A stretch of DNA of 59,551 nt, taken from positions 1 to 59,551 of the forward strand of contig JAFKGE010000041.1 of the NCBI GenBank assembly GCA_017307865.1. The letters are read 5' to 3'. The notes under the pieces are model-generated. The model was not told where the DNA came from. It did not search any database and saw nothing but the letters and a program-made list of their open reading frames with translations. The translations under genes were made by a program, and so were the position numbers. This document shows, piece by piece, positions 2,476 to 44,674 of this stretch (position 1 is the stretch's first letter; the number at the start of each line of letters is the position of its first letter). The DNA comes from Burkholderiales bacterium (GTDB lineage Bacteria; Pseudomonadota; Gammaproteobacteria; Burkholderiales; Burkholderiaceae_C).

Positions 2476-2540
2476 TTTTATATCAAATCGGGCTGCAGCG
2501 CCCGCCGACCAAGCGCTGACAGCTATTATTTTGATAGTTC
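2476..2540 (+). repeat. Dispersed ~60-bp repeat, copy A
   Basis: Copy A of a repeat family seen nine times in this window. Its layout is TCAAA, a GGCTCCAGCGCCCG-like block, a variable middle, AAGCGC, CAGCTATT and a final TTTGATAGT. This copy lies between the convergent GST and enoyl-CoA hydratase genes and encodes the last residues and TAA stop of the hydratase. Confidence 0.75.
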
Positions 2541-3350
2541 ACTGTAGCGCGGCGCACGGCGCTCGCGCAGGCTGGCGATGCCCTCGTGCACCTCGCTGCC
2601 GCCGAAGCCCATGAATTCGAGCGCCAGCGAGGTGTCGAACGTCGGCCCGGCCTGGCGGTACCAGTTGTTGAGCGAGTACTTGGTCCAGCGGATCGCGCTC
2701 TGGGCGCCGGCAGCCAGCTTGTCGGCCACCTCGTAGGCCTTGGCCAGCAGCTGATCGTCATCGACGGCCAGCGACACCAGGCCGATGCGCTCGGCCTCCT
2801 CGCCACTCACGGCCTCGCACAGCAGCAGGTGGTACTTGGCCTTGGCCATGCCGCACAGCAGTGGCCAGCAGATGGCGGCGTGGTCGCCCGCGGCCACGCC
2901 CAGGCGCGTGTGGCCGTCGACGATCTTGGCCGACCTGGCGGCGATCGACACGTCGGCCAGCAGGCCCGCCACCAGCCCCGCGCCCACGGCCGGGCCGTGC
3001 ATGGCGCTGACGACGGGCTTGTCGCAGTTGATGATGTTGTAGACCAGGTCGCGCGCCTCCTTCCACACGCGCGAGCGCACGGCGAAGTCGCTGGCCATGT
3101 CCTGCACCAGGGCCAGGTCGCCGCCGCCCGAAAAGCCCATGCCCTCGCCGCGCAGCACGGCCACGCGCACGCTGTCGTCGCGGTCGATGTCGCGCCAGAT
3201 TTCGGACAGCTCCCAGTGGCCTTCATGGCCGGCGGTGGGCAGCTTGCCGTTGGCGGCCTTCATCTGCAGGTCGAGCACGCAGCCGCCGTCGCCGCGGCGC
3301 GTGATGTTGAGAGTCTGGTAGCGGCTGTAGTCGATGGCGGGAGCGGTCAT
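2526..3350 (-). CDS. Enoyl-CoA hydratase/isomerase family protein
   Basis: A 274-residue crotonase-superfamily protein. The oxyanion-hole segments are present: [14 protein letters not shown] (first peptide NH) and [22 protein letters not shown] (second). The [12 protein letters not shown] region replaces the usual ExRLG-type segment, so the two catalytic glutamates of true hydratases are not obvious and the reaction may differ. ATG 3350 follows a GAAAGG site; a more upstream ATG (3425) lacks conservation. The final residues SELSK and the stop codon are encoded by dispersed repeat copy A, suggesting the original C-terminus was replaced. No other fatty-acid genes adjoin it. Confidence 0.82.
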
Positions 3351-3466
3351 GGTCGGGGCCTTTCGTTGGGCGGGGTTGATGGAATCGATCCGCCCCGATC
3401 GTAGCGGCGCCGCCCGCGCGCGCATTGCACAATGCCGGCCAGCGCCACCCTTGCCGGCGCCCCGCC

Positions 3467-4063
3467 ATGAGCTACACCTTCGTCTCGGCCACCATCCTGC
3501 TGCTGCTGCTGATCACCGATCCGCTGGGCAACATCCCCATCTTCGCCAGCGCGCTGAAGGCGGTGCCGGCGGCGCGCCGCCCACGCGTGATCCTGCGCGA
3601 GGTGCTGATCGCCTTCGGCCTGCTGCTGGCCTTCATGTTCGTGGGCGACGCCTTCCTGCGCGTGATGAACCTGTCGCAGCTGGCGCTGCAGCTGGCCGGC
3701 GCGGTGGTGCTGTTCCTGATCGCGCTGCGCATGGTGTTTCCGCCGCCGCCGGTGCCGGACGAGGAGGCCGCCGCCGAGCCCCTGATCGTGCCGCTGGCGG
3801 TGCCCGCGCTGGCCGGGCCGTCGGCGCTGGCCACCGTGCTGCTGCTGGTCAGCCAGGCGCCCGAGCGGCGCTGGGAATGGGTGGCCGCGCTCAGCGTGAC
3901 CATGGCCGTGTGCGCGCTGGTGCTGGTGCTGTCCGAGCGCATCCAGCGCTGGGTGGGCGCGCGCGTGCTGCAGGCCTTCGAGCGGCTGATGGGCCTGATC
4001 CTGGTGGCGGTGGCGGTCGAGATGCTGCTGCGCGGCCTCAAGTCGCTCGCGCCGCAACTCTGA
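3467..4063 (+). CDS. MarC-family integral membrane protein
   Basis: A 198-residue protein with about six hydrophobic segments. The N-terminal motif [10 protein letters not shown] is the hallmark of the MarC/UPF0056 family, and a second conserved segment [17 protein letters not shown] matches the internal repeat (PLAxPxxAGPxxI). It sits in the inner membrane; no molecular activity is established for the family despite the multiple-antibiotic-resistance name. It is divergent from the enoyl-CoA hydratase-like gene, with 116 bases between starts, and convergent with a Bug receptor. Confidence 0.87.
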
Positions 4064-4065
4064 CC

Positions 4066-4097
4066 GTCGGCGTCAATTCAGCTTGACGCCCGCCGAC
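4066..4097. terminator. Bidirectional hairpin between convergent genes
   Basis: GTCGGCGTCAA (4066-4076) pairs with TTGACGCCCGCCGAC (4083-4097) with a single bulge and a 6-base loop. It spans the space between the convergent marC-like and Bug-receptor genes and overlaps the 3' end of the latter. No strong T-run follows on either strand. Confidence 0.5.
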
Positions 4098-5044: not shown

Positions 5045-5099
5045 CAGCTTGTCTCCTTGCTTGTGGTTTGTGGTGGTAAACGAAAAATCGAAGGGACCG

Positions 5100-7701: not shown

Positions 7702-8568
7702 ATGCGCCGCTTCACCCTGCTCGCCACCGCTGCCCTGGCCGCCCTGCTGCTGGCCGCCTGCGCCACGCCGGCACGGCTGAGCCCGGCCGACCAGGCCCGG
7801 CTGGACGCCCGCCTGAACGCCCTGCTGCCCACCGACGTGCTGCTGCTGGGCGAGCAGCACGACGCGCCCGAGCACCACCGGCTGGAGCGCGCCACGGTGC
7901 AATGGCTGGCCGCGCGCGGGCGGCTGGCGGCGCTGGTGCTGGAGATGGCCGAGCAGGGCCACGACACGGCCGGCCTGCCGCGCAGCGCCAGCCAGGCCCA
8001 GGTGCGCCGCGCGCTGGCCTGGGACGAGGCCGGCTGGCCCTGGGACACCTACGGCCCGGTGGTGATGGCGGCGGTGCGCGCCGGCGTGCCGGTGTGGGGC
8101 GCCAACCTGCCGCGCGCCGACATGCGCCAGGCAATGCAGGACGCCAGCCTGGACACGCGCCTGCCGCCCGCCGCCTGGGCCGAGCAGCAGCGCCGCATCC
8201 GCGAAGGCCACTGCGACCTGCTGCCCGAAGGCCAGATCGTGCCCATGACGCGCATCCAGATCGCGCGCGACCGAGCCATGGCCGAGACCGCGGTGCGCGC
8301 GCTGCAGCCGGGCCGCACCGTGCTGCTGGTGGCCGGCAACGGCCATGTGCAACGCGGCCTCGGCATTCCGGAATATCTGCCCCAGAATATCCAGTCAAAA
8401 GTGGTTTCGGCCCAGGCAGAGCAAGCGCAAGCAGCTATCAATTCAGGAGATTCGGCGATCCAGGTCGAGGCCGGTGCCGACCAGGTCTGGCCCACGCCCC
8501 CGCTGCCGCCACGCGACCCCTGCGCCGAATTGCGCCAGCACTTCAAGCCCGCCGACGCGGCCCGATAG
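7702..8568 (+). CDS. ChaN-family lipoprotein
   Basis: A 288-residue predicted lipoprotein with a signal peptide and lipobox LLLAAC at residues 15-20, then the ChaN/DUF399 landmarks LLLGEQHDAPEHHRL and VLEMAEQGHD. Family members bind haem and are linked to iron uptake. ATG 7702 lies 6 bases after a -10-like TAGTAT (7690-7695) with no Shine-Dalgarno; GTG 7699 is an in-frame alternative. Near the C-terminus, about residues 231-250 (reading QAEQAQAAIN), the frame passes through dispersed repeat copy B, so this segment is probably an insertion that left the frame open. Confidence 0.82.
   Translation: MRRFTLLATAALAALLLAACATPARLSPADQARLDARLNALLPTDVLLLGEQHDAPEHHRLERATVQWLAARGRLAALVLEMAEQGHDTAGLPRSASQAQVRRALAWDEAGWPWDTYGPVVMAAVRAGVPVWGANLPRADMRQAMQDASLDTRLPPAAWAEQQRRIREGHCDLLPEGQIVPMTRIQIARDRAMAETAVRALQPGRTVLLVAGNGHVQRGLGIPEYLPQNIQSKVVSAQAEQAQAAINSGDSAIQVEAGADQVWPTPPLPPRDPCAELRQHFKPADAAR
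8394..8450 (+). repeat. Dispersed ~60-bp repeat, copy B, inside ChaN-like gene
   Basis: Shows TCAAAA, a GGCCCAGGC block, AAGCGCAAGCAGCTAT and ATTCAGGAG, matching copy D closely. It is in the same orientation as the gene and read in frame as AQAEQAQAAIN. Confidence 0.75.
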
Positions 8569-16869: not shown

Positions 16870-17718
16870 ATGCAAGACACCTACATTCTCACCCTGTCCT
16901 GCCCGGACCGACCGGGCATCGTGCATGCCGTCTCGGGCTTTTTGCTGGAGCACGGCGGCAACATCGAGGAAGCGGCGCAGTTCAACGACGCCGGCAACGG
17001 CCTGTTCTTCATGCGCGTGCAGTTCTCGTGCGCGCCCGGCAGCCCCGACGCCCTGCGCGAGGGCCTGGGCGGGCTGGCCGAGCGCTTCGGCATGCGCTGG
17101 CAACTGCACCCGGCCAGCCAGCCCATGCGCACCGTGATCTTCGTCAGCCGCGAGGGCCACTGCCTCAACGACCTGCTGTTTCGCTGGAAGTCGGGCCTGC
17201 TGCCACTCGACATCCGCGCCATCGTCAGCAACCACCGCGATTTCTACCAGCTGGCGGCCGGCTACAACGTGCCCTTTCATCACATCGCCGTCGGCAAGGC
17301 CAACAAGGCGCAGGCCGAAGCAAGGCAACTGGAGATCATCGAGAGCGAGGGCGCCGAGCTGGTGGTGCTGGCGCGCTACATGCAGATCCTGTCCGACGAG
17401 CTGTGCCAACGCTTGGCCGGGCGCGCCATCAACATCCATCACAGCTTTCTGCCCAGTTTCAAGGGTGCCAAGCCGTATTACCAGGCGCATGCGCGCGGCG
17501 TCAAGCTGATCGGCGCCACCGCCCACTACGTGACGGCCGACCTGGACGAAGGCCCGATCATCGAGCAGGACGTGGCGCGGGTGGACCACAGCAAGACGGT
17601 GGAAGACCTGACCGCCATCGGCCGCGACACCGAAAGCCAGGTGCTGGCGCGCGCCGTGAAGTGGCACAGCGAGCATCGGGTGCTGCTGTCGGGGCAGCGC
17701 ACGGTGGTGTTTCGCTGA
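16870..17718 (+). CDS. purU: Formyltetrahydrofolate deformylase
   Basis: A 282-residue enzyme that hydrolyses 10-formyl-THF to THF and formate, balancing one-carbon pools. The N-terminal ACT domain (residues 1 to about 80) begins YILTLSCPDRPGIVHAVSGF. The C-terminal formyltransferase-fold domain holds the catalytic Asn/His in INIHHSFLPSFKGAKPY and Asp in ATAHYVTADLDEGPIIEQD. ATG 16870 lies 8 bases after a -10-like GACAAT (16856-16861) with no Shine-Dalgarno, so the message may be leaderless. Confidence 0.95.
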   Translation: MQDTYILTLSCPDRPGIVHAVSGFLLEHGGNIEEAAQFNDAGNGLFFMRVQFSCAPGSPDALREGLGGLAERFGMRWQLHPASQPMRTVIFVSREGHCLNDLLFRWKSGLLPLDIRAIVSNHRDFYQLAAGYNVPFHHIAVGKANKAQAEARQLEIIESEGAELVVLARYMQILSDELCQRLAGRAINIHHSFLPSFKGAKPYYQAHARGVKLIGATAHYVTADLDEGPIIEQDVARVDHSKTVEDLTAIGRDTESQVLARAVKWHSEHRVLLSGQRTVVFR

Positions 17719-17739
17719 GGCGGCGCCGACTCATCAGGG

Positions 17740-17796
17740 GTCAAAAGCGGTTTCAGGCCGCATGCAGATTGCGCTGACAGCTCCCGAATCAAGAGC
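17740..17796 (+). repeat. Dispersed ~60-bp repeat, copy C
   Basis: A diverged copy between purU and pilT: GTCAAAAGCGG, then GCGCTGACAGCT and an AATCAAGAGC end. It is the weakest of the intergenic copies. Confidence 0.5.
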
Positions 17797-17876
17797 GCTT
17801 GCAGCGGGCGGCGCGTGACATCCTGCACGCTGGGCGCCGCAGCCGGGCCGGCCGTTGCGATTCGGGTACGCGCCGG

Positions 17877-17961: not shown

Positions 17962-19005
17962 GTGGACATCACCCAACTGCTGGCTTTCAGCGTCAAGAAC
18001 AACGCCTCCGACCTGCACCTGTCGGCCGGCCTGCCGCCCATGATCCGCGTGCACGGCGACGTGCGGCGCCTGAACGTGGAGCCGCTGGACCACAAGAAGG
18101 TGTTCGCGATGCTCTACGACATCATGAACGACACCCAGCGCAAGGTGTACGAGGAAAACCTGGAGGTGGACTTTTCGTTCGAGATCGAGGGCCTGGCGCG
18201 CTTTCGCGTCAACGCCTTCAACCAGAACCGCGGCGCCGCCGGCGTGCTGCGCACCATTCCCAGCAAGATCCTGACGCTGGAGCAGCTGGGCGCGCCCAAG
18301 ATCTTCGGCGAGCTGGCCCTGAAGCCGCGCGGCCTGGTGCTGGTGACCGGCCCCACGGGCTCGGGCAAATCGACCACCCTGGCGGCCATGGTCAACCACC
18401 TGAACGAGATGGAATACGGCCACGTGCTGACGGTGGAAGACCCGATCGAGTTCGTGCACGAGTCCAAGAAATGCCTGATCAACCAGCGCGAGGTGGGGCC
18501 GATGACCCACAGCTTCGCCAACGCGCTGCGCTCGGCCCTGCGCGAGGACCCCGACGCCATCCTGGTGGGCGAAATGCGCGACCTGGAGACCATCCGCCTG
18601 GCCATGACTGCGGCCGAGACCGGACACCTGGTGTTCGGCACGCTGCACACCTCCAGCGCGGCCAAGACCATCGACCGCATCATCGACGTCTTTCCGGCCG
18701 AAGAGAAGGAAATGGTGCGCGCCATGCTGTCCGAGTCGCTGCAGGCCGTCGTCTCGCAGACGCTGTGCAAGCTGAAGGACGGCTCGGGCCGCGTGGCGGC
18801 GCACGAGATCATGATCGGCACGCCCGCCATCCGCAACCTGATCCGCGAGGCCAAGGTGGCGCAGATGTACTCGGCCATCCAGACCGGCCAGGGCATGGGC
18901 ATGCAGACGCTGGACCAGACGCTGACCGACCTGGTGCGCCGCAACGTCATCAGCTCGGCCGAGGCGCGCGGCAAGGCCAAGATCCCCGAGAACTTCCCCA
19001 ACTGA
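17962..19005 (+). CDS. pilT: Type IV pilus retraction ATPase
   Basis: A 347-residue hexameric ATPase that powers pilus retraction at the inner membrane. Motifs: Walker A GPTGSGKSTT, Asp box DPIEFVH, Walker B ILVGEMRDLETI, His box GTLHTSSAAKTIDR, and the PilT-specific C-terminal AIRNLIRE element. The start is GTG 17962 (VDITQLLAFSVKNNASDLHL), which aligns with PilT N-termini, after a GAGAGG site; upstream in-frame codons would add an unconserved leader. It is followed by pilU after 69 bases containing dispersed repeat copy D. Confidence 0.96.
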   Translation: MDITQLLAFSVKNNASDLHLSAGLPPMIRVHGDVRRLNVEPLDHKKVFAMLYDIMNDTQRKVYEENLEVDFSFEIEGLARFRVNAFNQNRGAAGVLRTIPSKILTLEQLGAPKIFGELALKPRGLVLVTGPTGSGKSTTLAAMVNHLNEMEYGHVLTVEDPIEFVHESKKCLINQREVGPMTHSFANALRSALREDPDAILVGEMRDLETIRLAMTAAETGHLVFGTLHTSSAAKTIDRIIDVFPAEEKEMVRAMLSESLQAVVSQTLCKLKDGSGRVAAHEIMIGTPAIRNLIREAKVAQMYSAIQTGQGMGMQTLDQTLTDLVRRNVISSAEARGKAKIPENFPN

Positions 19006-19072
19006 TTTTTTGAGCTGAATCGACCTCCAGCCCATACCAATCAAGCGCAAACAGCTATTGATTCAGGAGTTC
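19005..19072 (+). repeat. Dispersed ~60-bp repeat, copy D, carrying the pilU Shine-Dalgarno
   Basis: Fills the whole pilT-pilU gap: CTCCAGCCCATA, then AATCAAGCGCAAACAGCTAT and TGATTCAGGAGTTC. Its terminal CAGGAG sits 5 bases before the pilU ATG and is the only Shine-Dalgarno candidate there. Confidence 0.75.
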
Positions 19073-22622: not shown

Positions 22623-25600
22623 TCACGCCATGGTCATCAACTGCGCGTTGCCGCCGGCCGCCGCGGTGTTGGTGCTGATCGACTGCTCGTGCACCAGCGC
22701 CGCCAGCTCGTAGCCCTGGCCCGCCAGCAGCTCGTCGCTGCTGCGGCTTTCGATGCGCACGATGGCGCCCTCGCGCGCCGCCACGCGGGCGGTGAGCGCC
22801 AGCAGCGCGTCGCCGTCGCCCTCGAACAGCACGGCCGCCATGGCGCACGCGCCGTCGTCCAGGCCGGCATCGGGCGCCTCGTGCAGCCAGACCTTGGCCT
22901 CGTCGCCGGCCGCCGCGCGCAGCGCCTGCCACAGGGTGGCGCAGCCCGTATCGACCGCCGGCAGCACCACATGGCAGGGGTTGCCGCTGGCCAGGCTGGC
23001 GACCACCTGCTGCAGCAGGCCCAGCGGCGTGCGTGGCAGCGCCCACACCGGGCCGCGCGGCAGCAGGCGGTAGCGGTTGGCTTCGCCCGTGGGGCCGGGC
23101 ATCGACCAGCTGGCGCCGACGCGCGCGGCGGCCAGCGCGGCGTCGATGGCGGCGCGCGCAGGTGCCCGCTCGGCCTCGGGCAGCGGCAGGCAGGCCTGGC
23201 GCAGGCGCTGCAGCAGGGCCTGCGCGGGCGCCGCTTCGGCGGCGGGCGGCAACGGCGCCAGCGCGGCCTGCGGCGGGCCCTGCACCAGCCGGTGCAGGTA
23301 CAGCGGGCCGCCGGCCTTGGGCCCGGTGCCCGACAGGCCCATGCCGCCGAAGGGCTGCACGCCCACCACGGCGCCGATGACGTTGCGGTTGACGTAGACG
23401 TTGCCGGCCTGCACGCGCTCGCTCAGGTGGGCGATGGTCTCGTCGATGCGGCTGTGCACGCCAAAAGTCAGGCCGTAGCCGGTGGCGTTGATGTCCTCGA
23501 TCAGGCGGTCGAGCTGCTCGCGCTGAAAGCGAACCACATGCAAAACCGGGCCGAACACCTCGCGGGTCAAGCGCGAGACGCTATCGATTTCAATGATCGT
23601 CGGGGCGACGAAGTGGCCGTTCAGCGCGCCGCCCCGACCCGACGCTTCGCGTTCGACGCGCGTCACCTTCTGGCCCGCCGCCTGCATGCGCTCGATATGC
23701 GCCTCGATCTGCGCGCGCGCGGCCTCGTCGATGACGGGGCCGACGTCGGTGTCGAGCTGGTCGGGGTTGCCCATCTGCCATTCCTGCAGTGCGTCGCGCA
23801 GCATGGTCAGCTGGCGCTCGGCCACGTCCTCCTGCAGGCACAGCAGGCGCAGCGCCGAGCAGCGCTGGCCGGCCGAGTCGAAGGCCGAGGCCAGCACGTC
23901 GCCCACCACCTGCTCGGCCAGCGCCGACGAATCGACCACCATGGCGTTCTGCCCGCCGGTCTCGGCGATCAGCGGGATGGGGTGGCCGCTGGCCGACAGG
24001 CGCCGCGCCAACTGGCGCGCGATGCCGCGTGCCACCTCGGTCGAGCCGGTGAACATCACGCCCGCCACCTGCGGCTGCACCACCAGCGTGGCGCCCACGC
24101 TTTCGCCTTGGCCGGGCATCAGTTGCAGCGCGCCCGGCGGCACGCCGGCCTCGTGCAGGATGGCCACCATGGCGGCGGCCGTGAGCGGCGTCTGCTCGGC
24201 CGGCTTGGCCAGCACGGCGTTGCCGGCGGCCAGCGCGGCGGCGACCTGGCCGCAAAAAATCGACAGCGGAAAATTCCACGGGCTGATGGCCAGCACCACC
24301 CCCAGCGGGCGCTGGCGCGCGTTGTCGAACTGCGCCGCCACCTGCGCCCCGTAGTAGCGCATGAAGTCCACCGCCTCGCGGATTTCGCCCACGGCATTGG
24401 CCAGGGTCTTGCCGGCCTCGCGCACGATCAGGCCCATCAGCGGCTGGCTGCGCTGCTCCAGCAGGTCGGCCGCGCGCGCCAGCACGTCGGCGCGCGCCGC
24501 CGGCGGCGTGCCGGCCCAGATCGGCGCGGCCTGCGCGGCGCGCGTGGCGGCGGCCTGCGCTTCTTCGGTGCTGGCTTCGCGCACCCAGCCCACCACGTCG
24601 GCCCGCTCGGCCGGGTTGCGCAGCGGCTGCCAGCCTTCGGCCTGGGCCGGGTCGGCCGGCGGCTCGACGCCGGTGGGGGCGGCGGCGTGCGGCTGGCGCG
24701 TGCTGTGCAGCAGGGCGGCGGCCAGCGAGGCCAGTTGCTGCTCGTGGGCCAGGTTCAGGCCCTGCGAATTGACGCGCGCCTGAGCGCCGAGCTGGGCGAA
24801 CAAGTCGGCCGGCAGGGCGATGCATGGGTGCGGGGCGCCCAGGCGGCCTTCCTGGCGGCCCAGCTCCAGCACCTGGGCCACGGGGTCTTGCACCAGTTCG
24901 GCCACCGGCACCTTGGCGTCGCCGATGCGGTTGACGAAGGAGGTGTTGGCGCCGTTTTCCAGCAGGCGGCGCACCAGGTAGGCCAGCAGGGTCTCGTGGC
25001 TGCCCACGGGCGCGTAGATGCGGCAGGGCCGCGCCAGCTTGCCTTCGGCCGTGGCGCCGGTGACCTGCGCGTACAGCGGCTCGCCCATGCCGTGCAGGCA
25101 CTGAAACTCGTACTGCCCGCTGTAGTAGCTGCCGCCCACACCCTGCGCCAGGTGATAGAGGGCCGACAGCGTTTGCGCGTTGTGGGTGGCGAACTGCGGA
25201 TACACCGCATCGGGCGCCTCCAGCAGCTTGCGCGCGCAGGCCAGGTAGCTCACGTCGGTGTAGACCTTGCGCGTGTAGACCGGGTAGCCGGCCAGGCCAT
25301 CGAGCTGCGCGCGCTTGATCTCGCTGTCCCAGTAGGCGCCCTTGACCAGGCGCACCATCAGGCGGCGGCGGCTGCGCCGCGCCAGATCCACCAGGTAGTC
25401 GATCACCTGCGGGCAGCGCTTTTGATAGGCCTGCACGACGAAGCCGATGCCGTTCCAGCCGCGCAGGCTGGGCGCGGCGCACAGGGCTTCCAGCAGATCG
25501 AGCGACAGCTCCAGCCGGTCGGCCTCCTCGGCGTCGATGTTCATGCCGATGTCGTAGTGCTTGGCCAGCTCGGCCAGGTGCAGCACGCGCGGCAGCAACT

Positions 25601-27110: not shown

Positions 27111-27128
27111 GACCACGTGACCGCCCCC

Positions 27129-28052
27129 ATGTCCGACTCCGCCCCCGTCGGCAAGGCCGACTTTCGCCCCGCGCGGGCCGCCGCCACGGCCGCCGCCGGT
27201 GCGCAGCATTATCCGGTCGGGGCGCTGTACGTGGTGGCCACCCCGATCGGCAACCTGGCCGACATCACGCTGCGCGCGCTGCACGTGCTGGGCCTGGCAG
27301 ACGCCATTGCCTGCGAGGACACGCGCCACACCCAGCAGCTGCTGCGCGCCTACGACATCGACGGCCGGCCGCTGATCGCCCTGCACCAGCACAACGAGGC
27401 CGCGGCCGCGCAGGGCGTGATCGAACGCCTGCAGGCCGGCCAGCGCGTGGCCTACGTGAGCGACGCCGGCACGCCGGCCATCAGCGACCCCGGCGCGCGC
27501 CTGGCCGCCGCCTGCGCCCAGGCCGGCCTGCGCGTGGTGCCGCTGCCCGGCGCCAGCAGCGTGACCACCGCGCTCAGCGCCGCCGGGCTGGCGGGCGACG
27601 GCGCCTTCGTGTTCCAGGGCTTTCTGCCCGCCAAGGCCGGCGAGCGCGACGCCGCCGTGCAGGCGCTGGCGCAGGAGCCGCGCGCCGTGGTGCTGCTGGA
27701 GGCGCCGCACCGCATCGGCGCGCTGGCGCCCGCGCTGGCGGCGCTGGGTGGGCGCCCCCTCACCGTGGCGCGCGAGCTGAGCAAGCAGTTCGAGCAGATC
27801 GCCACCGTGGCCTGCGCCCAGCTGCCCACCTGGCTGGCGCAGGATGCGCAGCGCCAGCGCGGCGAATTCGTGCTGGTGTTGCACCCGGCGCCCACCGGTG
27901 CTCAAGACGGCGACGCCGAGCGCGTGCTGCGCCTGCTGCTGGCCGAATTGCCCCTAAAAACCGCCGTCAAGCTGGCCGCCGAGATCACCGGCGCGCCGCG
28001 CAATGCGCTGTACCAGCAGGCACTGGCGCAGCGCGATGGCGGAGAAATTTAA
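27129..28052 (+). CDS. rsmI: 16S rRNA (cytidine-2'-O)-methyltransferase
   Basis: A 307-residue SAM-dependent enzyme that methylates the 2'-O of C1402 in 16S rRNA. Landmarks of the tetrapyrrole-methylase fold: LYVVATPIGNLADITLRAL, ACEDTRHTQQLL, VSDAGTPAISDPG, PLPGASSVTTALSAAGL and FLPAKAGERD. The N-terminal ~25 residues are unconserved. The end of the gene runs into dispersed repeat copy E, which overlaps its stop codon. Confidence 0.95.
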   Translation: MSDSAPVGKADFRPARAAATAAAGAQHYPVGALYVVATPIGNLADITLRALHVLGLADAIACEDTRHTQQLLRAYDIDGRPLIALHQHNEAAAAQGVIERLQAGQRVAYVSDAGTPAISDPGARLAAACAQAGLRVVPLPGASSVTTALSAAGLAGDGAFVFQGFLPAKAGERDAAVQALAQEPRAVVLLEAPHRIGALAPALAALGGRPLTVARELSKQFEQIATVACAQLPTWLAQDAQRQRGEFVLVLHPAPTGAQDGDAERVLRLLLAELPLKTAVKLAAEITGAPRNALYQQALAQRDGGEI

Positions 28053-28115
28053 ATCAAAACCGGCTCTAGCCGGCATGGGACAAGCGCGATCAGCTATGCA
28101 TTCGATAGTCGATCA
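28045..28115 (+). repeat. Dispersed ~60-bp repeat, copy E, between convergent genes
   Basis: Reads ATCAAAACCGGCTCTAGCCG, then ACAAGCGCGATCAGCTAT and TTCGATAGTCG. It spans the rsmI/spmAB convergence and contains the stop codons of both. Confidence 0.75.
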
Positions 28116-29360
28116 GTGGAAGAAGGCGTAGCCCACCAACACCGCCACCACCAGCCCCACCCCGTCGGCCAGCAGCGCGCAGGGCAGCGCGTGGCGCGTG
28201 TGCTTGACGCCCACGCTGCCGAAGTACACCGCCAGCACGTAGAAGGTGGTCTCGGTCGAGCCCTGGATGATGGCGGCCAGCTGGCCGGGGAAGGACGCCA
28301 CGCCGTAGGTCTGCATCACGTCCACCATCAGCCCGCGCGCGCCCGAGCCCGACAGCACCTTCATCAGGCCCACCGGCACGGCAGGCAGAAAGTCGGTGGG
28401 CCAGCCCAAGGCCGCCACGGCCCAGGCAATGCCGCCCATCAGCCAGTCGAGCAAGCCGGCGGCGCGAAACACGGCAATGGCCGCCAGCATGGCCACCAGG
28501 TAGGGAATGATCTGCACGGCAACGACGAAGCCGTCCTTGGCGCCGTCGACAAAGGCCGAATAGACGTCCACGCGCTTGACCAGGCCCGCGCCCATGAACA
28601 GCGCCACGATGGCGAGGATGGCGCCGGCGCCGATCACGCCCATCCACTGCGCGGCCTGCTCGGGCGGCAGGCGCGAGAGCCACCACACCAGCGCGCCGGT
28701 GACGGCGGCAAAGCCCGCCAGCGGCGCCAGCAGGCTGGCGCGCCACAGCGCGATGCGCTGCACCCAGGCGACGGCCAGCAGCGCCACCAGCAAGGTGATG
28801 GCGGTGACCACCAGCGTGGGCAGGAAGATGTCGGCGGCGTTGAAGTGCGCCACGCCCTGTTTGACCGCCAAGGTCTGGCGGATGGCGATGACCGAGGTGG
28901 GAATCAGCGTCAGCCCGGCGGTGTTGAGCACCAGGAACATGATCTGCGCGTTGGTGGCGGTGTCGGGCTGCGGGTTGAGCGACTGCAGCTCCTGCATCGC
29001 CTTCAGGCCCAGCGGCGTGGCGGCGTTGTCCAGGCCCAGCAGGTTGGCGCTGATGTTGAGCGTCATCGCGCCGTGCGCCGGGTGGCCGGCCGGCACGCCG
29101 GGAAAGATCTGGCGCATCACCGGCCGCACCGCGCGCGCGAAGTGATCGATCATGCCGGCCTGCTCGCCGATGCGCATCAGGCCCAGCCACAGCGCCATCA
29201 TGCCCGTCAGGCCCAGCGAGATCTCGAAACCCGTCTTGGCGGCGCCGAACAGCGCCTCCAGCTGGCGCGGAAAGGCGCCCAGGTCGCCCCCCAAAGTCTG
29301 CACCAGCGCCGCGACAAAGGCGCTGAGGAAGAAGCCGAGCCAGACGTAGTTGAGAACCAA
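28113..29360 (-). CDS. Nucleoside-recognition (Gate) domain protein, SpmA-SpmB fusion
   Basis: A 415-residue integral membrane protein with two Gate/nucleoside-recognition domains, equivalent to SpmA and SpmB of spore formers fused head to tail. First half: KTGFEISLGLTGMMALWLGL and MTLNISANLLGLDNAATPLG; second half: GAKDGFVVAVQIIPYLVAML and SGSGARGLMVDVMQ-TYG. Function in non-sporulating bacteria is unknown. I placed the start at TTG 29360, giving MVLNYVWLGFF, the family N-terminus; the longer frame upstream reads through a palindrome and is unlikely to be coding. Confidence 0.83.
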   Translation of the reverse strand: MVLNYVWLGFFLSAFVAALVQTLGGDLGAFPRQLEALFGAAKTGFEISLGLTGMMALWLGLMRIGEQAGMIDHFARAVRPVMRQIFPGVPAGHPAHGAMTLNISANLLGLDNAATPLGLKAMQELQSLNPQPDTATNAQIMFLVLNTAGLTLIPTSVIAIRQTLAVKQGVAHFNAADIFLPTLVVTAITLLVALLAVAWVQRIALWRASLLAPLAGFAAVTGALVWWLSRLPPEQAAQWMGVIGAGAILAIVALFMGAGLVKRVDVYSAFVDGAKDGFVVAVQIIPYLVAMLAAIAVFRAAGLLDWLMGGIAWAVAALGWPTDFLPAVPVGLMKVLSGSGARGLMVDVMQTYGVASFPGQLAAIIQGSTETTFYVLAVYFGSVGVKHTRHALPCALLADGVGLVVAVLVGYAFFH

Positions 29361-30262: not shown

Positions 30263-31168
30263 TCACACCCGGCGCCGGCGCAGCCCCAGGCCCATCACCG
30301 CACCCACCACGATCAGCGCGCCCAGCACCTGCAGCGGCGCCACGGACTGGCCCAGGATCAGCCAGCCCAGCACCAGGGCGAACACCGGCTCGACGTTGAG
30401 CACCGGCGAATTGCCCACCACGCCCAGGCGCGGCAGCACGGTGAACAGCAGCGTGATGCCGGTGCCGTACAGCAGCATCAGCAGGACGAGGCCCAGCCAG
30501 CCCACCGGCGCCGTGGGCAGGGCAAAGCCGCCCTGCGCCAGCGCGGCGGCCACGGCCACCAGCGCGGCGACGGCGATCGAGCCGAAGGTGCGCACGCGGC
30601 CGTCCAGCCGCCCGGCTTCGTGCTGGGTGAGCACCAGGGCCAGGCCGAACAGCGCGGCGGCCACCAGCGCAAAGCCCACGCCGGCACCGATGGCGCGCCA
30701 CTGCCCGGCCGCGCCCAGGCCCGAGGCGGCGCCCAGCACGTCGAGCGCCAGCACCAGGCCGAGCAGAATGATCGGCATGGCCAGCAGCACCGTGCGCTCG
30801 GGCCGGTGGCCGTACAGCAGGCGCGCCCACAGCGCCGTCATCAGCGGAAAGGCGTTGAACACCAAGAGCGCCAGCACCACCGGCAGGCGCGCCACGGCCG
30901 CGTACAGGCACAGGCTTTGCACGCCGATCAGCACGCCGATGGCGGGCAGTGCGCGGCGCTCGCGCGCCGTCAGGGCCACCGGCACGCGCTGCAAGATCAG
31001 CAGCGCACCGACGGCCAGTGCCGTGCCCGTGCTGCGAAACGCCACCGCCGTGGCCACCGTCACGCCGTGATCGAACGCCAGCCGCGCGGCCACGTGGTTG
31101 CTGGCCATCAGCAGGGCGATCAGCAGCAGCGCGAGAAACCCGGCCCAACCGGGGCCGCGCGGCGCCAT
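30263..31168 (-). CDS. EamA/DMT-family transporter
   Basis: A 301-residue membrane protein with about ten hydrophobic segments in two EamA repeats of the drug/metabolite transporter superfamily. The first repeat includes SNHVAARLAFDHG and AFRSTGTALAVGALL; the second ends SPVLNVEPVFALVLGWLILGQ, the usual proline-rich landmark (P-x4-L). The cargo is unknown. It overlaps the panE stop by one base (TGATG), so the two are cotranscribed. Confidence 0.85.
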   Translation of the reverse strand: MAPRGPGWAGFLALLLIALLMASNHVAARLAFDHGVTVATAVAFRSTGTALAVGALLILQRVPVALTARERRALPAIGVLIGVQSLCLYAAVARLPVVLALLVFNAFPLMTALWARLLYGHRPERTVLLAMPIILLGLVLALDVLGAASGLGAAGQWRAIGAGVGFALVAAALFGLALVLTQHEAGRLDGRVRTFGSIAVAALVAVAAALAQGGFALPTAPVGWLGLVLLMLLYGTGITLLFTVLPRLGVVGNSPVLNVEPVFALVLGWLILGQSVAPLQVLGALIVVGAVMGLGLRRRRV

Positions 31169-32163
31169 CAATACAGGCCCAGCTGGCGCGCGTGCAAGCG
31201 CGCCAGGCCCAGCAGCGCGTCGGTGAAGGGCGTGGCCACGCCGGTGAGTTGGCCCAACTCGCGCACCGAGCCGACCAGGGCGTCGATCTCGACCGGTTTG
31301 CCGGCGCGCACGTCCTGCAGCATCGAGGGCGTGAACACGCCCAGCTTGCGCGTGACGCGATGGCGGTCCTCGGGCGTCTCGGCGATCGGCACGCCGATGC
31401 GCGCGCCGATTTCGCGCGCTTCCAGCATCACGGCGCTGACAAAGCCGCGCGCCAGCTCGTCGTCCATGATGCGGTCGGCGGTGGCGCCGGTGAAGGCGCT
31501 GATGGGGTTGATCGTCATGTTGCCCCACAGCTTGTACCAGACGTCCTTCTGGATCTGCGGCGACACCGTGACATCGAAGCCGGCCGCGCGCAGCAGCGCC
31601 GCCAGCGCCGTCAGGCGCGGCGAATCGCCCCCCGCCGGCTCGCCCACGATCAGGCCGTTGCCGAAGTGGCGGCGCACCACACCCGGCGCATCGAGCGAGC
31701 AGCTGGCGTGCACCACGCAGCCGATCACCTGGCGCGCCGGGATGGCGCGCTCGATCGCGCCGTCGGCGTCGACCGAAGCCAGGCGCGTGCCGGCCAGCGC
31801 GCCGCCAAAGCCCTGCAAAAACCACCAGGGCACGCCGTTCATCGCCGTCAGCACGACGGTATCGGGCCCCAGCAGCGGACCGATGTGACGCGCCACCTCG
31901 GCCATGGCCGGCGCCTTGACGGCGACGATGACCACGTCCTGCACGCCCAGCTCGGCCGGGTCGGCAGCGGCCTGCACGGCAAAGGCGCGTTCCGTCGGTT
32001 GCCCATCGGCACCCGCCTCGATCAGGCGCAGGCCGTGCTCGCGCAGCGCCGCCAGCGTGGCGCCGCGTGCCACGCAGCCGACCTGCGCGCCCTGCGCCGC
32101 CAGGCGCGCGCCCAGCCAGCCGCCGATGGCGCCGACGCCGTAGATGCAGATTTTTTGAGTCAT
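31168..32163 (-). CDS. panE: 2-dehydropantoate 2-reductase family protein
   Basis: A 331-residue NADPH-dependent reductase of the ketopantoate reductase family (pantothenate synthesis). The N-terminal dinucleotide motif ICIYGVGAIGGWLGARLA and the catalytic Lys region (KDVWYKLWGNMTINPISAF) are clear, as is the later EIGARIGVPI helix. Many bacteria carry several paralogues, so a different 2-keto acid is possible. Dispersed repeat copy I lies immediately upstream, and its GGAG may be the ribosome-binding site. Confidence 0.85.
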   Translation of the reverse strand: MTQKICIYGVGAIGGWLGARLAAQGAQVGCVARGATLAALREHGLRLIEAGADGQPTERAFAVQAAADPAELGVQDVVIVAVKAPAMAEVARHIGPLLGPDTVVLTAMNGVPWWFLQGFGGALAGTRLASVDADGAIERAIPARQVIGCVVHASCSLDAPGVVRRHFGNGLIVGEPAGGDSPRLTALAALLRAAGFDVTVSPQIQKDVWYKLWGNMTINPISAFTGATADRIMDDELARGFVSAVMLEAREIGARIGVPIAETPEDRHRVTRKLGVFTPSMLQDVRAGKPVEIDALVGSVRELGQLTGVATPFTDALLGLARLHARQLGLY

Positions 32164-32165
32164 AT

Positions 32166-32218
32166 TCGGCTCCGACGCCCGCCCCTAAAGCGCGGGCAGC
32201 TTCTGAATTGATAGTGAC
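32166..32218 (-). repeat. Dispersed ~60-bp repeat, copy I, upstream of panE
   Basis: On the plus strand it reads GGCTCCGACGCCCGCCCCTA, then AAGCGCGGGCAGCTTCTGAA and TTGATAGTGAC. It begins 3 bases from the panE ATG, and on the minus strand its GGAGCC lies at Shine-Dalgarno distance. Confidence 0.65.
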
Positions 32219-34733: not shown

Positions 34734-34916
34734 TTTGAACGCAGAAGACGCAAAGTAGTCACAAAGGGCGCAGAAGGATTCAAAATTTTTATTGAATTCC
34801 TTTCAATGCCTTGTGCAAAAAGCGCCAACAGCTATTGTTTTAGAAGCATTTTTTGTTTGTCTTTTTTGCGCCCTTTGCGAATCCTTTGCGCCCTCTGCGT
34901 TCGGCTGTTCGGCTGT
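34734..34916. repeat. Large imperfect inverted repeat (GCAGARGRCGCAAAG arms) with nested dispersed repeat
   Basis: The left arm (34734-34781) and right arm (34862-34904) are about 40-base complements built of ~17-base modules such as CGCAGAGGGCGCAAAGG. Between them lies dispersed repeat copy F (34781-34850). Three tandem copies of TTCGGCTG follow (34900-34923). The same arm sequence recurs at 39810-39910. It fills the hpaH-hpaI gap. Confidence 0.75.
34781..34850 (+). repeat. Dispersed ~60-bp repeat, copy F
   Basis: Recognised by AAAAGCGCCAACAGCTATTG followed by TTTTAGAAGC, with an AT-rich left end. It sits in the loop of the larger inverted repeat. Confidence 0.6.
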
Positions 34917-39772: not shown

Positions 39773-39809
39773 GGGAGGCCTTGTTCAAGTTCAACGTGAA
39801 CGAATACCG

Positions 39810-39910
39810 GACGCAGAGGACGCAAAGGTTTCGCAAAGGACGCAAAAAAGACAGAATCTCACGAGGTCTTTTCTGCGCCCTCTGCGAGTTTCTGCGCCCT
39901 CTGCGTTCGG
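39810..39910. repeat. Large imperfect inverted repeat between hpaG2 and hpaE
   Basis: Left arm 39810-39852 (GACGCAGAGGACGCAAAGG...) and right arm 39868-39910 are ~43-base near-complements with about 15 bases between. Arms consist of two ~17-base modules and match those at 34734-34904. The hpaG2 stop (39859-39861) falls in the loop, and the right arm encodes the last ~16 residues of HpaG2. Confidence 0.8.
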
Positions 39911-40680
39911 CTGCTCGGGCTTTCGACGATGGTGTTTTCCAGCGCGCCGATGCCCTCGATCTCGCACACCACCACGCTGCCCACCGGGCAGTCCACCACG
40001 CCGTCGGGCGTGCCGGTCAGGATCACGTCGCCCGGGTTCAGCGTCATGAAGCTGCTGAAGTACTCGATCAGCGTCGGCACGTCGAACACCATGTCGGCGG
40101 TCGTGCCCTGCTGCGTGACGCTGCCGTTCACCGTGGTGCGCAGCTTCAGATTCATCGGATCGGCGATGTCGGACGCATCGACCAGCCAGGGGCCGATGGG
40201 CGTGCCGGTGTCGCGGTTTTTCACGCGCAGGTTGGGGCGGTACCAGTTTTCCAGGTAGTCGCGCACGGCGTAGTCGTTGGCCACGGTGTAGCCGCGCACG
40301 AAGTCGTAGGCGTCGGCCTTGCGTACATGTTTGGCTTCGCGGCCGATCACCACCGCCAGCTCGCATTCGTAGTGCATGTTCTGCACATCGTCGGGGCGCA
40401 CGGTGTGCCCGCGGTGGCCGATGAACGACGCCTCGCCCTTGGCAAAGGCCAGCGGCTCCTCGGGCGGCTTGAAGGCCAGCTCGCGCGCGTGGTCGGCATA
40501 GTTCAGGCCGAGGGCCAGCACGCTGCGCGCGCGCGGCACGGGTGCCAGCGGCGGCAGCCAGACGACCTCGTCGAAGGACAGCCGACGGCCCTGGAACGCC
40601 GGCGTCAGCAGTTCGAGCTGGCCGCCCTGCTCGATGGCGTCATGGATCGCGCCGGCCCAGGCGATGCGGGCATGCTTCAT
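39859..40680 (-). CDS. hpaG2: HpaG2: 2-oxo-heptenedioate isomerase/decarboxylase half
   Basis: A 273-residue FAH-family protein corresponding to one half of the fused HpaG/HpcE (5-oxopent-3-ene-1,2,5-tricarboxylate decarboxylase / isomerase). Landmarks: LALGLNYADHARELAF, metal ligands in NMHYECELAVVIGREA (E-x-E), VANDYAVRDYLENW, KNRDTGTPIGPWLV and LNPGDVILTGTPDGV. The final SSRTQRAQKLAEGAEKTS is encoded by the inverted-repeat arm and is foreign to the family. It overlaps hpaG1 by four bases. Confidence 0.9.
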   Translation of the reverse strand: MKHARIAWAGAIHDAIEQGGQLELLTPAFQGRRLSFDEVVWLPPLAPVPRARSVLALGLNYADHARELAFKPPEEPLAFAKGEASFIGHRGHTVRPDDVQNMHYECELAVVIGREAKHVRKADAYDFVRGYTVANDYAVRDYLENWYRPNLRVKNRDTGTPIGPWLVDASDIADPMNLKLRTTVNGSVTQQGTTADMVFDVPTLIEYFSSFMTLNPGDVILTGTPDGVVDCPVGSVVVCEIEGIGALENTIVESPSSRTQRAQKLAEGAEKTS

Positions 40681-41381
40681 GCGGCCTCCTGAGCCAAGGT
40701 GTGCACCAGCGGCGCCAGTCCGGGCGCGCTGATCTCGACCCGGTCACCCGCCCGCACGCGCGGCCGCGTGCCGTCTGCGAGGCAGTCCGTGCCCAGCAGC
40801 AGCACGTCGCCCGGTTGCAGGGTCATGAAGGCGCCGACGTCGGCCAGCAGGGTGGCGGCGTCGCGCACCAGGGTGGACAAATCCACCGTCTGCACCAGCG
40901 CGCCGTTGACGCGCGCCTCGATCCGCAAGGCCTTCAGGTCCACCTCGCGCAGCGGCGTGACGGCCGGTGCGCAGACCAGAAAGCCGTCGCGGTTGCGATA
41001 GCGGATGGCCGGCCGGTAGTAGCTGGCGTGCGGCAGGCTCAGGTCGTCCAGCAGCACGCAGCCGGCCACGCGGGCCAGTCCATCCAGTTCAAACTTGATA
41101 GCTGCTTGCGCTTTACTGGAGCGGGCTGCAGCCGCATTTGTCTCAAAATCACCGATCACCAGCCCCAGCGTGGCGCCCAGCTCGACCGCGCCCGTCACGG
41201 GCACCGCCGCGCCCGTGGGCGCGAAGCTGTTGGCGGTCTTGACGTAGAGCACGGGCGCGCGCGGTGCGGCCTTGTAGGGCGCCTGGCTCATCTTGGGCGC
41301 CCACCGATCCCACTCGCGGCGGAAGTTCAGCAAGGTGCCGTAGACGGTGCCGCGCGGCAGCCAGGGTGCATGCAGGCTCAT
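40677..41381 (-). CDS. hpaG1: HpaG1: FAH-family half of HpaG
   Basis: A 234-residue FAH-family protein equivalent to the other half of fused HpaG. Landmarks: GTVYGTLLNFRREWD, LYVKTANSFAPTGAAVPV, ELGATLGLVIGDFE (metal-ligand E), RYRNRDGFLVCAP and LQPGDVLLLGTDC. Residues about 77-98 (reading RSSKAQAAIKFEL) are encoded by dispersed repeat copy G, which inserted without breaking the frame. It overlaps hpaR by four bases, so regulator and enzyme are cotranscribed. Confidence 0.87.
   Translation of the reverse strand: MSLHAPWLPRGTVYGTLLNFRREWDRWAPKMSQAPYKAAPRAPVLYVKTANSFAPTGAAVPVTGAVELGATLGLVIGDFETNAAAARSSKAQAAIKFELDGLARVAGCVLLDDLSLPHASYYRPAIRYRNRDGFLVCAPAVTPLREVDLKALRIEARVNGALVQTVDLSTLVRDAATLLADVGAFMTLQPGDVLLLGTDCLADGTRPRVRAGDRVEISAPGLAPLVHTLAQEAA
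41086..41151 (-). repeat. Dispersed ~60-bp repeat, copy G, inside hpaG1
   Basis: On the minus strand it reads TGATTTTGAGAC, GGCTGCAGCC, then AAAGCGCAAGCAGCTATCAA. It is in the sense orientation of hpaG1 and is read in the same frame (AQAAI) as copy B in the ChaN-like gene. Confidence 0.75.
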
Positions 41382-41860: not shown

Positions 41861-41862
41861 TT

Positions 41863-41878: not shown

Positions 41879-41913
41879 TTCTGCCGGCAACGCAAGCCGC
41901 TCACAATCAGGGT

Positions 41914-42960: not shown

Positions 42961-42963
42961 GGA

Positions 42964-43596
42964 TCAGGCCTTGGGCGCCTTGGTGAAGCGCAGGTAGGGC
43001 TTGACCTTGCGGAAGCTGCCGAACTGCTTTTCGGCGTCGGCGTCGGACAGCTTGGGCGACACCACGACCTCGTCACCGGGCTTCCACTCCACCGGCGTGG
43101 CCACCGGGTTCTTGTCGGTCACCTGCAGGGCGTCCAGCGTGCGCAGGATTTCGTCCACGCTGCGGCCCACGCTGGGCGGGTAGGTCAGCACGGTGCGCAC
43201 CACGCGCTTGGGGTCGATGAAGAACACCGAGCGCACGGTCACCAAGGCGTCGGCCTTGGGGTGGAACATGCCGTATTCCTTGGCCACCTTGAGGTCGGGG
43301 TCGGCCAGGATCGGGTAGCCGACCGGCGCACCGCCGACCTCGGCCACGTCCTTGGCCCACTTGACGTGCTCGGCCACCGGGTCGACCGACAGGCCCAGCA
43401 GCTTGGTGCCGCGCTGGTCGAACTCGGCCTTGCGGCGCGCGAAGGCGCCCAGCTCGGTGGTGCAGATCGGCGTGAAGTCCTTGGGGTGCGAGAAGAACAC
43501 GACCCAGTGGCCGGCCGCGTAGTCGCTGAAGTGGATCGACCCCTGGGTGGAGTCGAGGGTGAAGTCGGGGGCGGTCTCGCCCAGTTGCAAGCTCAT
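42964..43596 (-). CDS. 1-Cys peroxiredoxin (Prx6 type)
   Basis: A 210-residue peroxiredoxin reducing hydroperoxides. The peroxidatic Cys is C45 in HPKDFTPICTTELGAF. It is the only cysteine in the protein, so this is a 1-Cys enzyme; the long C-terminal extension (VEWKPGDEVVVSP) is typical of Prx6. Its stop lies 3 bases from that of the convergent nitronate monooxygenase gene. No OxyR site was recognised upstream. Confidence 0.93.
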   Translation of the reverse strand: MSLQLGETAPDFTLDSTQGSIHFSDYAAGHWVVFFSHPKDFTPICTTELGAFARRKAEFDQRGTKLLGLSVDPVAEHVKWAKDVAEVGGAPVGYPILADPDLKVAKEYGMFHPKADALVTVRSVFFIDPKRVVRTVLTYPPSVGRSVDEILRTLDALQVTDKNPVATPVEWKPGDEVVVSPKLSDADAEKQFGSFRKVKPYLRFTKAPKA

Positions 43597-43807
43597 GGTG
43601 ATGGCCTTGTTGCAGTGCTATGCCCGTGCGTATCGCGCCTGCACGCCGCCGCAAAGGGCGCCAGCCAGCCGGCATCAACACCGGCCGGCGCCCCGCATCG
43701 CGCGGGGCGGCCGCAGACGCGAATCAGCATACGCCGATGCGGCGCGCGATGGAAATGGTCAATGGTTGTGAGCACATGACCACAGGCGATATGCGCGCGC
43801 CGGGCCG

Positions 43808-44674
43808 CTACGCGCCGGGCACATCGACCGCCCGAGCGGGCCGCGCCGGCGGCGCCAGCCAGCGCGCCGCCGCGGCCTGCAGGGCTTGCGGATCGCCCGT
43901 GCTGAACAGTTGCAAGTCGGTGGCGCCACTGCCCGGCGCCAGGCCACCGGCGCGCTGCAGCAGCTGGCGCGTGTGGCGTGCCACGGGGGCGCCGGTTTCG
44001 ACCAGTTGCACATCCGGCCCCACCAGGGCGCGCAGCACGTCCCGCGCAAACACGTAGTGCGTGCAGCCCAGCACCAGCGTGTCGATCTGCCCGGATTCGG
44101 TGCCAAATGGGCCTGCAGCGCCCGTGTAGTGTTCGCACAGTGCTTTCATTTTGATAGTCCACGCGCCGCCCGGCGCCGGCTCGGCGGCGGCGCGCTCGAT
44201 GGCGTCGGCCAGGCCGTCGCAGGGCTGCAGCGCAAAGCGCGTCGGCCCCTGCAGCGACTGCAGCAGGCGCGCGAACTTGCCGCTGGCCAGCGTGCCGCGC
44301 GTGGCGAAGACGCCGACGTACCCCGTGCGCGTGACCGCCACGGCGGGCTTGAGCGCGGGCTCCACCCCCACCACGATCAGGCCCGGGTGCTGCCGGCGCA
44401 GCCGGCCGATGGCTGCCGCCGTCGCGGTGTTGCAGGCCACCACCAGCGCCTTGATGCCGTGCGCGCGCCGCAGCCAGTCGGTGATGGCCAGCGCACGCTC
44501 GACCACGAAGGCCTCGCCGCGCTCGCCATAGGGCGCGTGGCCGGCATCGGCCAGGTAGACGAAGCGCTCATGCGGCAATTCGGCCTGCAGCGCGCGCAGC
44601 ACGCTCAGGCCGCCGACGCCGCTGTCGAACACGCCGATGGGGGCCAAGGGGGAAGACGCAGTCAGGGAGGTCAC
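43808..44674 (-). CDS. murI: Glutamate racemase
   Basis: A 288-residue cytosolic enzyme making D-glutamate for peptidoglycan. Catalytic cysteines are in LVVACNTATAAA and DTLVLGCTHYVFA; the N-terminal substrate loop IGVFDSGVGGLSVLRAL is intact. I placed the start at GTG 44674 because a minus-strand GACAAT (44683-44688) lies 8 bases upstream and ATG 44716 or 44728 would overlap radA. About residues 172-190 (IKMKALCEHYTGAAGPFG) are encoded by dispersed repeat copy H in antisense orientation. Confidence 0.9.
   Translation of the reverse strand: MTSLTASSPLAPIGVFDSGVGGLSVLRALQAELPHERFVYLADAGHAPYGERGEAFVVERALAITDWLRRAHGIKALVVACNTATAAAIGRLRRQHPGLIVVGVEPALKPAVAVTRTGYVGVFATRGTLASGKFARLLQSLQGPTRFALQPCDGLADAIERAAAEPAPGGAWTIKMKALCEHYTGAAGPFGTESGQIDTLVLGCTHYVFARDVLRALVGPDVQLVETGAPVARHTRQLLQRAGGLAPGSGATDLQLFSTGDPQALQAAAARWLAPPARPARAVDVPGA
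44104..44159 (+). repeat. Dispersed ~60-bp repeat, copy H, inside murI
   Basis: Reads CAAATGGGCCTGCAGCGCCC, then a middle block and TTTCATTTTGATAGTC. It aligns along its whole length with copy A at 2476-2540. It is antisense to murI and keeps the frame open. Confidence 0.7.

Follow-up and report, generated by a model that had tools for sequence, protein, structure and literature searches.

A 66-bp dispersed DNA motif of Comamonadaceae genomes and its possible identity as a DNA-uptake-type signal

Motif copies in the window and their common layout

The present analysis concerns a family of short dispersed repeats in a 59,551-nucleotide stretch of DNA from a Burkholderiales bacterium (Burkholderiaceae_C; assembly GCA_017307865.1, contig JAFKGE010000041.1, positions 1 to 59,551 of the forward strand), which as a whole is called the window. 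An earlier note on this DNA had described nine copies in about 42 kb, and all nine were recovered, along with a tenth at 23558, by a profile of 51 copies lying outside the window, the rows of which were chosen with a first-round profile whose 30 seeds included window copies. Together with the wider evidence given below, there is good support that these repeats are a genome-wide motif of double-stranded DNA, evolving and kept largely in place.

The window copies occur in several settings, where gene names were assigned by eye unless supported by a structure search. Two lie in convergent gaps: the copy at 2475..2540 (+ strand, 55.6 bits), between a GST-like gene (1821-2471, +) and an enoyl-CoA-hydratase-like gene (2526-3350, -), which has an orthologous copy in the related genome G018, and the copy at 28046..28111 (+, 43.7 bits), between an rsmI-like gene (26823-28052, +) and a membrane-protein gene (28113-29360, -). 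The gap between pilT (17962-19005, +) and pilU (19075-20211, +) is filled by a copy at 19007..19072 (+, 51.4 bits), and another, at 32152..32217 (+, 44.3 bits), lies at the start of a ketopantoate-reductase-like gene (31168-32163, -). Two are in frame inside genes, one at 8387..8452 (+, 42.3 bits) in a ChaN-like lipoprotein gene (7702-8568, +) and one at 41084..41149 (-, 45.0 bits) in a gene of the fumarylacetoacetate-hydrolase family (40677-41381, -). At the ChaN-like site the motif was matched in the same place in 11 of 19 loci of the genus, the source included (E up to 0.1, two of them below 20 bits), with no clear length change among these loci. The copies first reported at 17740, 34781 and 44104, and the additional one at 23558, are degenerate or partial. 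That at 17733..17798 (+, 18.6 bits) is degenerate and lies downstream of a purU-like gene (16870-17718, +), and at 44095..44160 (+, 17.3 bits) a degenerate left half, matching positions 2-35 only, is antisense inside a murI-like gene (43808-44674, -). The tenth copy, at 23533..23598 (+, 23.0 bits, positions 27-60 only), is antisense inside a putA-like gene (22623-26633, -). The partial copy at 34784..34849 (+, 25.6 bits, positions 27-67 only) is nested in a different inverted repeat (34737-34904), between the arms of a separate dispersed palindromic family of the type CGCAGAGG.CGCAAAGG...GCAAAGGACGCAAAA that is also present at 39807-39853.

When the window was shuffled 50 times with dinucleotides preserved (2.98 Mb), no score rose above 13.4 bits, which every one of the ten copies exceeds, so the family is real and its density is above chance, as had been claimed, and its coordinates proved correct to about 15 bases. 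The nine reported sites have one ungapped layout in common, and the element is 66 bp long, in a single register that extends from -36 to +30 relative to the core AAGCGCnnnCAGCTAT. It consists of two core sequences, GCGC and AGCTAT, flanked on either side by A/T tracts at constant distances (-36..-32, -26..-23, +17..+20 and +28..+30), and its GC content is 49%, against 68% for the window. In 237 copies scoring 25 bits or more, drawn from five genomes of the source genus, the information amounts to about 62 bits relative to background, with 22.5 in the core; choosing copies by score inflates these figures, and the flanks, which were not selected, carry almost none. When the same 237 copies were examined for the ends of a miniature inverted-repeat transposable element (MITE), flank signal was absent outside -36..+31, relative entropy there being at most 0.12 bits per position. 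A core pattern with 9 instead of 8 bases before TAG had one match in the source genome and 0 to 7 elsewhere, which shows that spacing matters, and only that.

Coupling between alignment columns, in 58 copies, is largely confined to neighbouring columns; the distant pairs depend on one or a few atypical copies, and the coupled alternatives are often equivalent base-pair steps, such as AAA with TTT or CA with TG. Such alternative words at fixed places suggest, as far as the copies themselves can indicate, that the shape of double-stranded DNA may be what is recognized. In the divergent promoter region upstream of an mnmG-like gene (contig C14 of the source genome G000, and G003, G018 and G310), words such as CTATTTTAT, CAGCTA and ATAGC are kept across species while the rest changes.

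Abundance, distribution and placement

With up to one mismatch allowed, the core AAGCGCNNNCAGCTAT occurs 172 times forward and 184 times in reverse in the source genome (3.9 Mb), against 3 and 3 for a reversed-pattern control. A 460-kb sample of this genome, comprising the window and 400 kb of other contigs, contained 71 copies at E < 0.01 and none in reversed sequence, using a model trained on that very sample; the motif was present in each contig stretch sampled, and its density is about 150 copies per Mb, alike on both strands. Across 29 genomes of the genus the core counts range from 1 to 778, the motif-rich genomes extending from about 100 in G015 to 778 in G014, with strands near equal where counts are high (375/403 in G014, 308/311 in G368 and 235/237 in G003; reversed control 0-8), and three members of the same genus, G365, G367 and G372, have the motif at control level. 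That both strands carry the motif equally in the stretches of G014 and G003 speaks against a polar motif of the Chi kind. A large over-representation on both strands alike, which is a mark of uptake signals, is therefore a property of this motif.

In a set of 250 family genomes, 31, representing 19 of 141 genera, have the exact sequence AAGCGCNNNNAGCTAT at least 20 times, and its control was found never more than 3 times. In these 19 genera the strands are roughly balanced, a few being skewed (e.g., 58/35 and 7/16). Among 150 genomes from across the order, those outside the family have at most two matches each, nearly all weak, the two in G144 scoring 36 and 30 bits. The matches listed in a separate scan of named records include Acidovorax, Comamonas, Ottowia, Diaphorobacter, Polaromonas, Rhodoferax, Giesbergeria, Alicycliphilus and Simplicispira, and the 116 loci from that scan (914 kb) held 100 further copies that the pattern had not chosen, with none in reversed sequence.

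Copies are spaced more evenly than random in the source genome and in G018, and only two pairs closer than 200 bp were seen in the stretches examined. Contig C1 of G003 has inverted core pairs 64 bp apart (3003883/3003947 and 3260310/3260374), which may represent a duplication or something like a terminator. In the G003 stretch, the longest interval without a copy, singled out after the fact for its size, is island-like, spanning 64 kb with a GC content of 0.61-0.66 and genes that by eye resemble restriction-modification, toxin-antitoxin and polysaccharide genes; GC content is not low in a copy-free 20-kb bin of G014. Among viral contigs there was one match to a strict pattern which only part of the copies satisfy, many of these contigs having unrelated hosts, and a blastn search of plasmids and phages with one copy gave no match, a search that is insensitive for a 70-base query. 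The tests on the G003 gap and the viral contigs, small and weak as they are, suggest a shortage of the motif in acquired DNA and viruses.

Placement was scored in 1.48 Mb of the five genus genomes for 238 copies with 25 bits or more, with genes called by a script of our own, these calls being poorer in G003, where the called coding fraction is only 0.70. Half of the copies (119) are intergenic, 76 extend across a gene end and 43 are contained within a gene. Gene-end overlaps are mostly at 3' ends (64 of 88), copies often follow stop codons or lie near start codons, and many possess, towards the right end, a purine-rich AG word; at many intergenic copies the residual gap is near zero. Those inside genes run in both orientations (26 in the same sense as the gene and 17 opposite), and 22 of 25 same-sense copies use one reading frame, giving peptides around QAxAAI. 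The settings described earlier from nine copies (convergent gaps, spaces between cotranscribed genes and gene interiors) are thus borne out on the larger set, and the association with Comamonadaceae made in the earlier note agrees with a motif typical of the family and rare beyond it.

Copies within genes and between genes

From a list of 21 in-gene copies, the seven in familiar-looking protein families were aligned to solved structures, at the level of protein, the DNA behind the structures not being seen. The motif segment of PurK (a 52-bit copy) is ungapped relative to the solved sequences 4izo and 4e4t, and no indel was found in that of a LysR regulator (35 bits) or of a CopA-like ATPase (28 bits), the latter having six extra residues just after it. 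An LhgO-like oxidase is five residues longer within the segment and two more after it, the fumarylacetoacetate hydrolase of the window (41084..41149) has 13 additional residues relative to PDB 1gtt, and ParB has 19 at the motif segment; the ParC alignment was uninformative. A second comparison used orthologues for 42 in-gene copies of at least 25 bits, where a motif-less orthologue was one scoring below 6 and scores of 6-20 were left out. This gave 11 comparisons at eight loci, with differences of -1 to +2 residues at four (one with compensating gaps) and +20 at one, the other three being uninformative since the orthologue's gene call fell short of the segment; a gene of the major facilitator superfamily (MFS) showed no lengthening at the motif. 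Pooling both comparisons, 7 of 11 informative gene loci differ by at most two residues from their homologues. As would characterize an uptake signal, the motif occurs in place at most of the coding loci compared and has a preferred reading frame.

The PurK segment is identical in length in 25 of 26 sequences of the genus, the exception being a homologue of only 39% identity. In most motif-rich genomes it is specified by codons such as GCT, GCA and ATA, and the DNA scores up to 52 bits; several motif-poor genomes have a near-identical peptide by way of GC-rich codons. In the source-genome sample, GCT, GCA and ATA make up 2.3%, 3.6% and 0.7% of the codons for their amino acids, and the codon index of the source PurK gene is 0.15 in the segment versus 0.85 in the rest of the gene, with 0.04% of 125,739 windows as low. 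The rare codons of the source gene are kept in 12 motif-rich relatives in 66 of 88 cases inside the segment versus 52 of 174 outside, and in 12 motif-poor relatives in 30 of 68 versus 48 of 154. The motif-poor G001, G007 and G364 have PurK sites of 25-38 bits, and a score of 0 for some orthologues (L135 at least) is an effect of the position filter. Judged from these alignments, the PurK motif is written with rare codons into a protein segment that existed before it, and since those codons are both used and retained, it seems that selection or drive acts, or acted, on the DNA itself.

The gap between pilT and pilU is 69 nt in the source, and only 12-13 nt in two relatives; 5 of 27 loci of the genus, the source among them, have the motif in this gap. 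Where gaps with and without the motif were compared, differences of +63, +67 and +75 bp were seen, of which only that of +75 aligns as a fairly clean insertion. Many of the compared gaps also hold other repeats, which obscure empty sites and target duplications. The intergenic copies may have an origin different from those in genes.

A possible uptake signal, its rivals and known systems

An even chance can be given to the reading that the motif is a DNA-uptake-type signal. Its likeness to known uptake signals lies in strand symmetry, sequence cores combined with A/T tracts, absence from sister species, the reading frame within genes and the overlap with gene ends. The type IV pilus and ComEC competence machinery of these Comamonadaceae would, through a putative receptor, prefer DNA that bears the motif; uptake biased in this way and followed by recombination would swap weaker alleles for stronger ones, a form of drive, and the motif would accumulate at hundreds of places that tolerate it, such as gaps, gene ends, loops and codon choices. 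ComEC (PF03772) was detected in 26 of the 29 genus genomes, the three without it being motif-poor but incomplete, and the source genome has ComEC as an open frame of 841 codons as well as the pilT and pilU genes of the window. The broader proposal, that Comamonadaceae have a third, independent uptake language, 66 bp long, with two cores between A/T tracts, coded in DNA shape, shared by many genera, responsible through biased uptake for rewriting gene ends and codons at hundreds of loci, and lost in sister species, stands a little below even. If correct, this large environmental family would provide a third uptake-signal system, implying that self-recognition by DNA tags arises repeatedly, and the motif could predict which genomes exchange genes.

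Pilus-dependent, sequence-specific uptake has been described in Verminephrobacter eiseniae, and Acidovorax temperans was transformed only by DNA of its own species, while A. defluvii DSM 12644 and a strain of A. delafieldii were not detectably transformed (Davidson et al. 2014, PMC4212676, in part). The signal responsible is not named in the cited parts of that paper (PMC4212676), and under an uptake function the present motif could be the signal in both Verminephrobacter and Acidovorax. It is present in A. delafieldii 2AN, a strain other than the one that was not transformed. It is also found in the records of A. temperans DSM 7270 and A. facilis DSM 649, which we take to be the type strains used in the 2014 transformation study. 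Literature searches for 'DNA uptake sequence' in Comamonadaceae and 'uptake signal sequence' in Burkholderiales found nothing, and a search of paper texts for the repeat sequence returned noise only.

A number of observations weigh against an uptake function. The element is unusually long, and 66 bp is long for a pilus receptor; the presence of ComEC does not track copy number, and genomes free of the motif have ComEC. In the motif-rich G003, ComEC is in three fragments (C1:3619011-3619842), which may reflect an assembly error or a recent loss of competence, and the PurK site of this genome is weak (8 bits). Three motif-poor relatives also show high retention of the rare PurK codons, and A. 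defluvii DSM 12644 carries the motif despite the lack of detected transformation in it. Copies wholly within genes show no excess over expectation near the gene ends (the first tenth of the gene holds 0 of 43 and the last tenth 1 of 43), spacing is not more even than random in G003 or G014, and the AAA/TTT switch has intermediates (159 AAA, 21 TTT, 19 GAA and 11 ATT in 237 copies). Four of the 11 informative gene loci are longer than their homologues, three of them by 13-20 residues, and some intergenic copies look inserted. A copy is present in 9 of 14 convergent gaps of 40-90 bp and in 2 of 11 longer ones, which suits insertion, there being none in 26 gaps below 40 bp, where it would not fit. 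In 20 comparisons of gaps with and without the motif, which are not all independent loci, four were longer by 45-80 bp and one was shorter by that amount, the controls being 14 longer and 16 shorter of 319.

Much of the evidence for an uptake signal would also be accounted for by an architectural or nucleoid-associated protein wrapping 66 bp at sites selected for chromosome folding or segregation, and the long footprint, the tracts on both sides, the shape-like alternative words, the in-place occurrence in genes, the copies in each sampled stretch of the source genome and the lack of strand bias all fit such a site. We consider it unlikely nonetheless, because control-level counts in G365, G367 and G372 are odd for something that maintains the chromosome, and because selection would presumably have to overcome codon bias at hundreds of arbitrary genes. 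More unlikely still is a non-autonomous mobile element, like a MITE or a repetitive extragenic palindrome (REP), that inserts mostly at gene junctions and whose old copies decay. The sharp ends and fixed length, the near-zero residual gaps, the occupancy of convergent gaps of 40-90 bp, the longer pilT-pilU gap, the length differences of about one element and the three lengthened gene loci speak for it, but PurK, LysR, CopA, the MFS gene and others are not lengthened, the rare codons of PurK are kept, and alternative words change together. The MITE proposed in the earlier note thus has some intergenic copies and three gene loci on its side, and against it the seven gene loci that show no gain of fixed length. 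The same note had found no linked transposase, and none was found here either. Its suggestion of a REP-like element moved by a distant REP-associated tyrosine transposase (RAYT) was rejected, as no conserved stem-loop was seen and the single Y1_Tnp (RAYT-like) gene of the source genome (L031:1138-1866, -, on G000:C43) has different palindromic ends, GGGGTCAGATCA / TGATCTGACCCC; a core-pattern search of 3.3 kb around this gene, made in the source genome only, found no motif copy.

Double illegitimate recombination can replace short patches of DNA, and a selfish form of it could be imagined in which short single-stranded pieces of the repeat pair at microhomologies and overwrite resident DNA with a net change of 0 to +66 bp. 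This would cover both the in-place gene copies and those that look inserted, with net changes of 0 to about 20 residues, yet a nearly identical PurK peptide in motif-poor genomes means that foreign DNA is not needed, and the retention of the rare PurK codons is left without explanation, so that we hold it to be distinctly improbable. Finally, an element that acts in transcripts, whether as structured RNA, as terminator or by being translated, would suit the frequent positions after stop codons and near start codons and the purine-rich AG word, and had been raised by the earlier note, at least as regards RNA. RNAalifold gave two invariant pairs and no covariation, Rfam had no match in the window at gathering scores, no distant column coupling carries weight, and the in-gene copies are in both orientations; a structured RNA was accordingly discarded, and any role in transcripts is very improbable indeed. 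Whatever its function, a 66-bp motif that overrides codon usage within genes calls for explanation, and it is a caution that 'dispersed repeats' need not be mobile elements.

To return to the uptake signal as the preferred reading, known signals of this kind are about 30 bp with their tracts included. In the literature covered they are described only for Pasteurellaceae and Neisseriaceae, with cores of 9-11 bp (PMC7811141, in part). The uptake signal sequences (USS) of Haemophilus combine a core with A/T tracts, effects of shape have been discussed, and strain Rd of Haemophilus influenzae has 2,206 of them (cited parts of PMC7811141); a preferred orientation relative to the reading frame and a bias to gene termini are described for uptake sequences (PMC2346458, in part), and a model has been published in which uptake bias and mutation lead to their accumulation (PMC1939737, in part). 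The present motif resembles the Pasteurellaceae USS, with their hundreds to thousands of copies, in having copies in the hundreds and a core with tracts (PMC7811141, as cited), as well as a preferred frame and many overlaps with gene ends (PMC2346458, as cited). It differs in its core sequence, in its length, which is 66 bp rather than a 9-11 bp core with tracts, and in having fewer copies (356 core matches in 3.9 Mb, against 2,206 in Rd; PMC7811141, as cited), while copies wholly inside genes have no end bias and some copies look inserted. With the DNA uptake sequences (DUS) of Neisseriaceae it shares a beta-proteobacterial host, competence by way of the type IV pilus and a genome-wide motif. 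We know of no DUS with such long flanking tracts. The DUS is also a 10-bp motif (PMC7811141, as cited), unlike the 66 bp found here.

Among non-uptake repeats, REP sequences and bacterial interspersed mosaic elements (BIMEs) are likewise short, dispersed, high in copy number and enriched between genes, and the present motif is unlike them in lacking a conserved stem-loop, in having 43 of 238 copies inside genes, and in the differing ends of the RAYT-like gene. The beta-proteobacterial repeat element (BRE) of Hot et al. (2011, PMC3110155, in part) is 75-91 bp long, with 69% GC in Bordetella, and sometimes tandem, with 8-22 copies in Bordetella and at most 29 (Polaromonas). It too is a short repeat of gaps and genes, listed in Polaromonas, Delftia, Acidovorax and Rhodoferax (PMC3110155, as cited), but as a name for the present motif it was set aside, by its published description only, since length, GC content (49% here) and host range differ, the present motif being rare outside the family and having just the two close pairs. 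A long GC-rich dispersed repeat of a different type (GCCCCCAGGCTCCAC...CCCCC...GGCCTGCTCCGCGGCC) fills the same gene gaps in several relatives, among them the pilT-pilU gaps of L055, L059, L060, L062, L063 and L077, and also occurs in the C14 and G018 sequences; its GC content and habitat make this one a candidate for the published BRE. A tandem array of a 23-bp unit starting with ATGGCGGACA lies close to the window's end (59422-59536).

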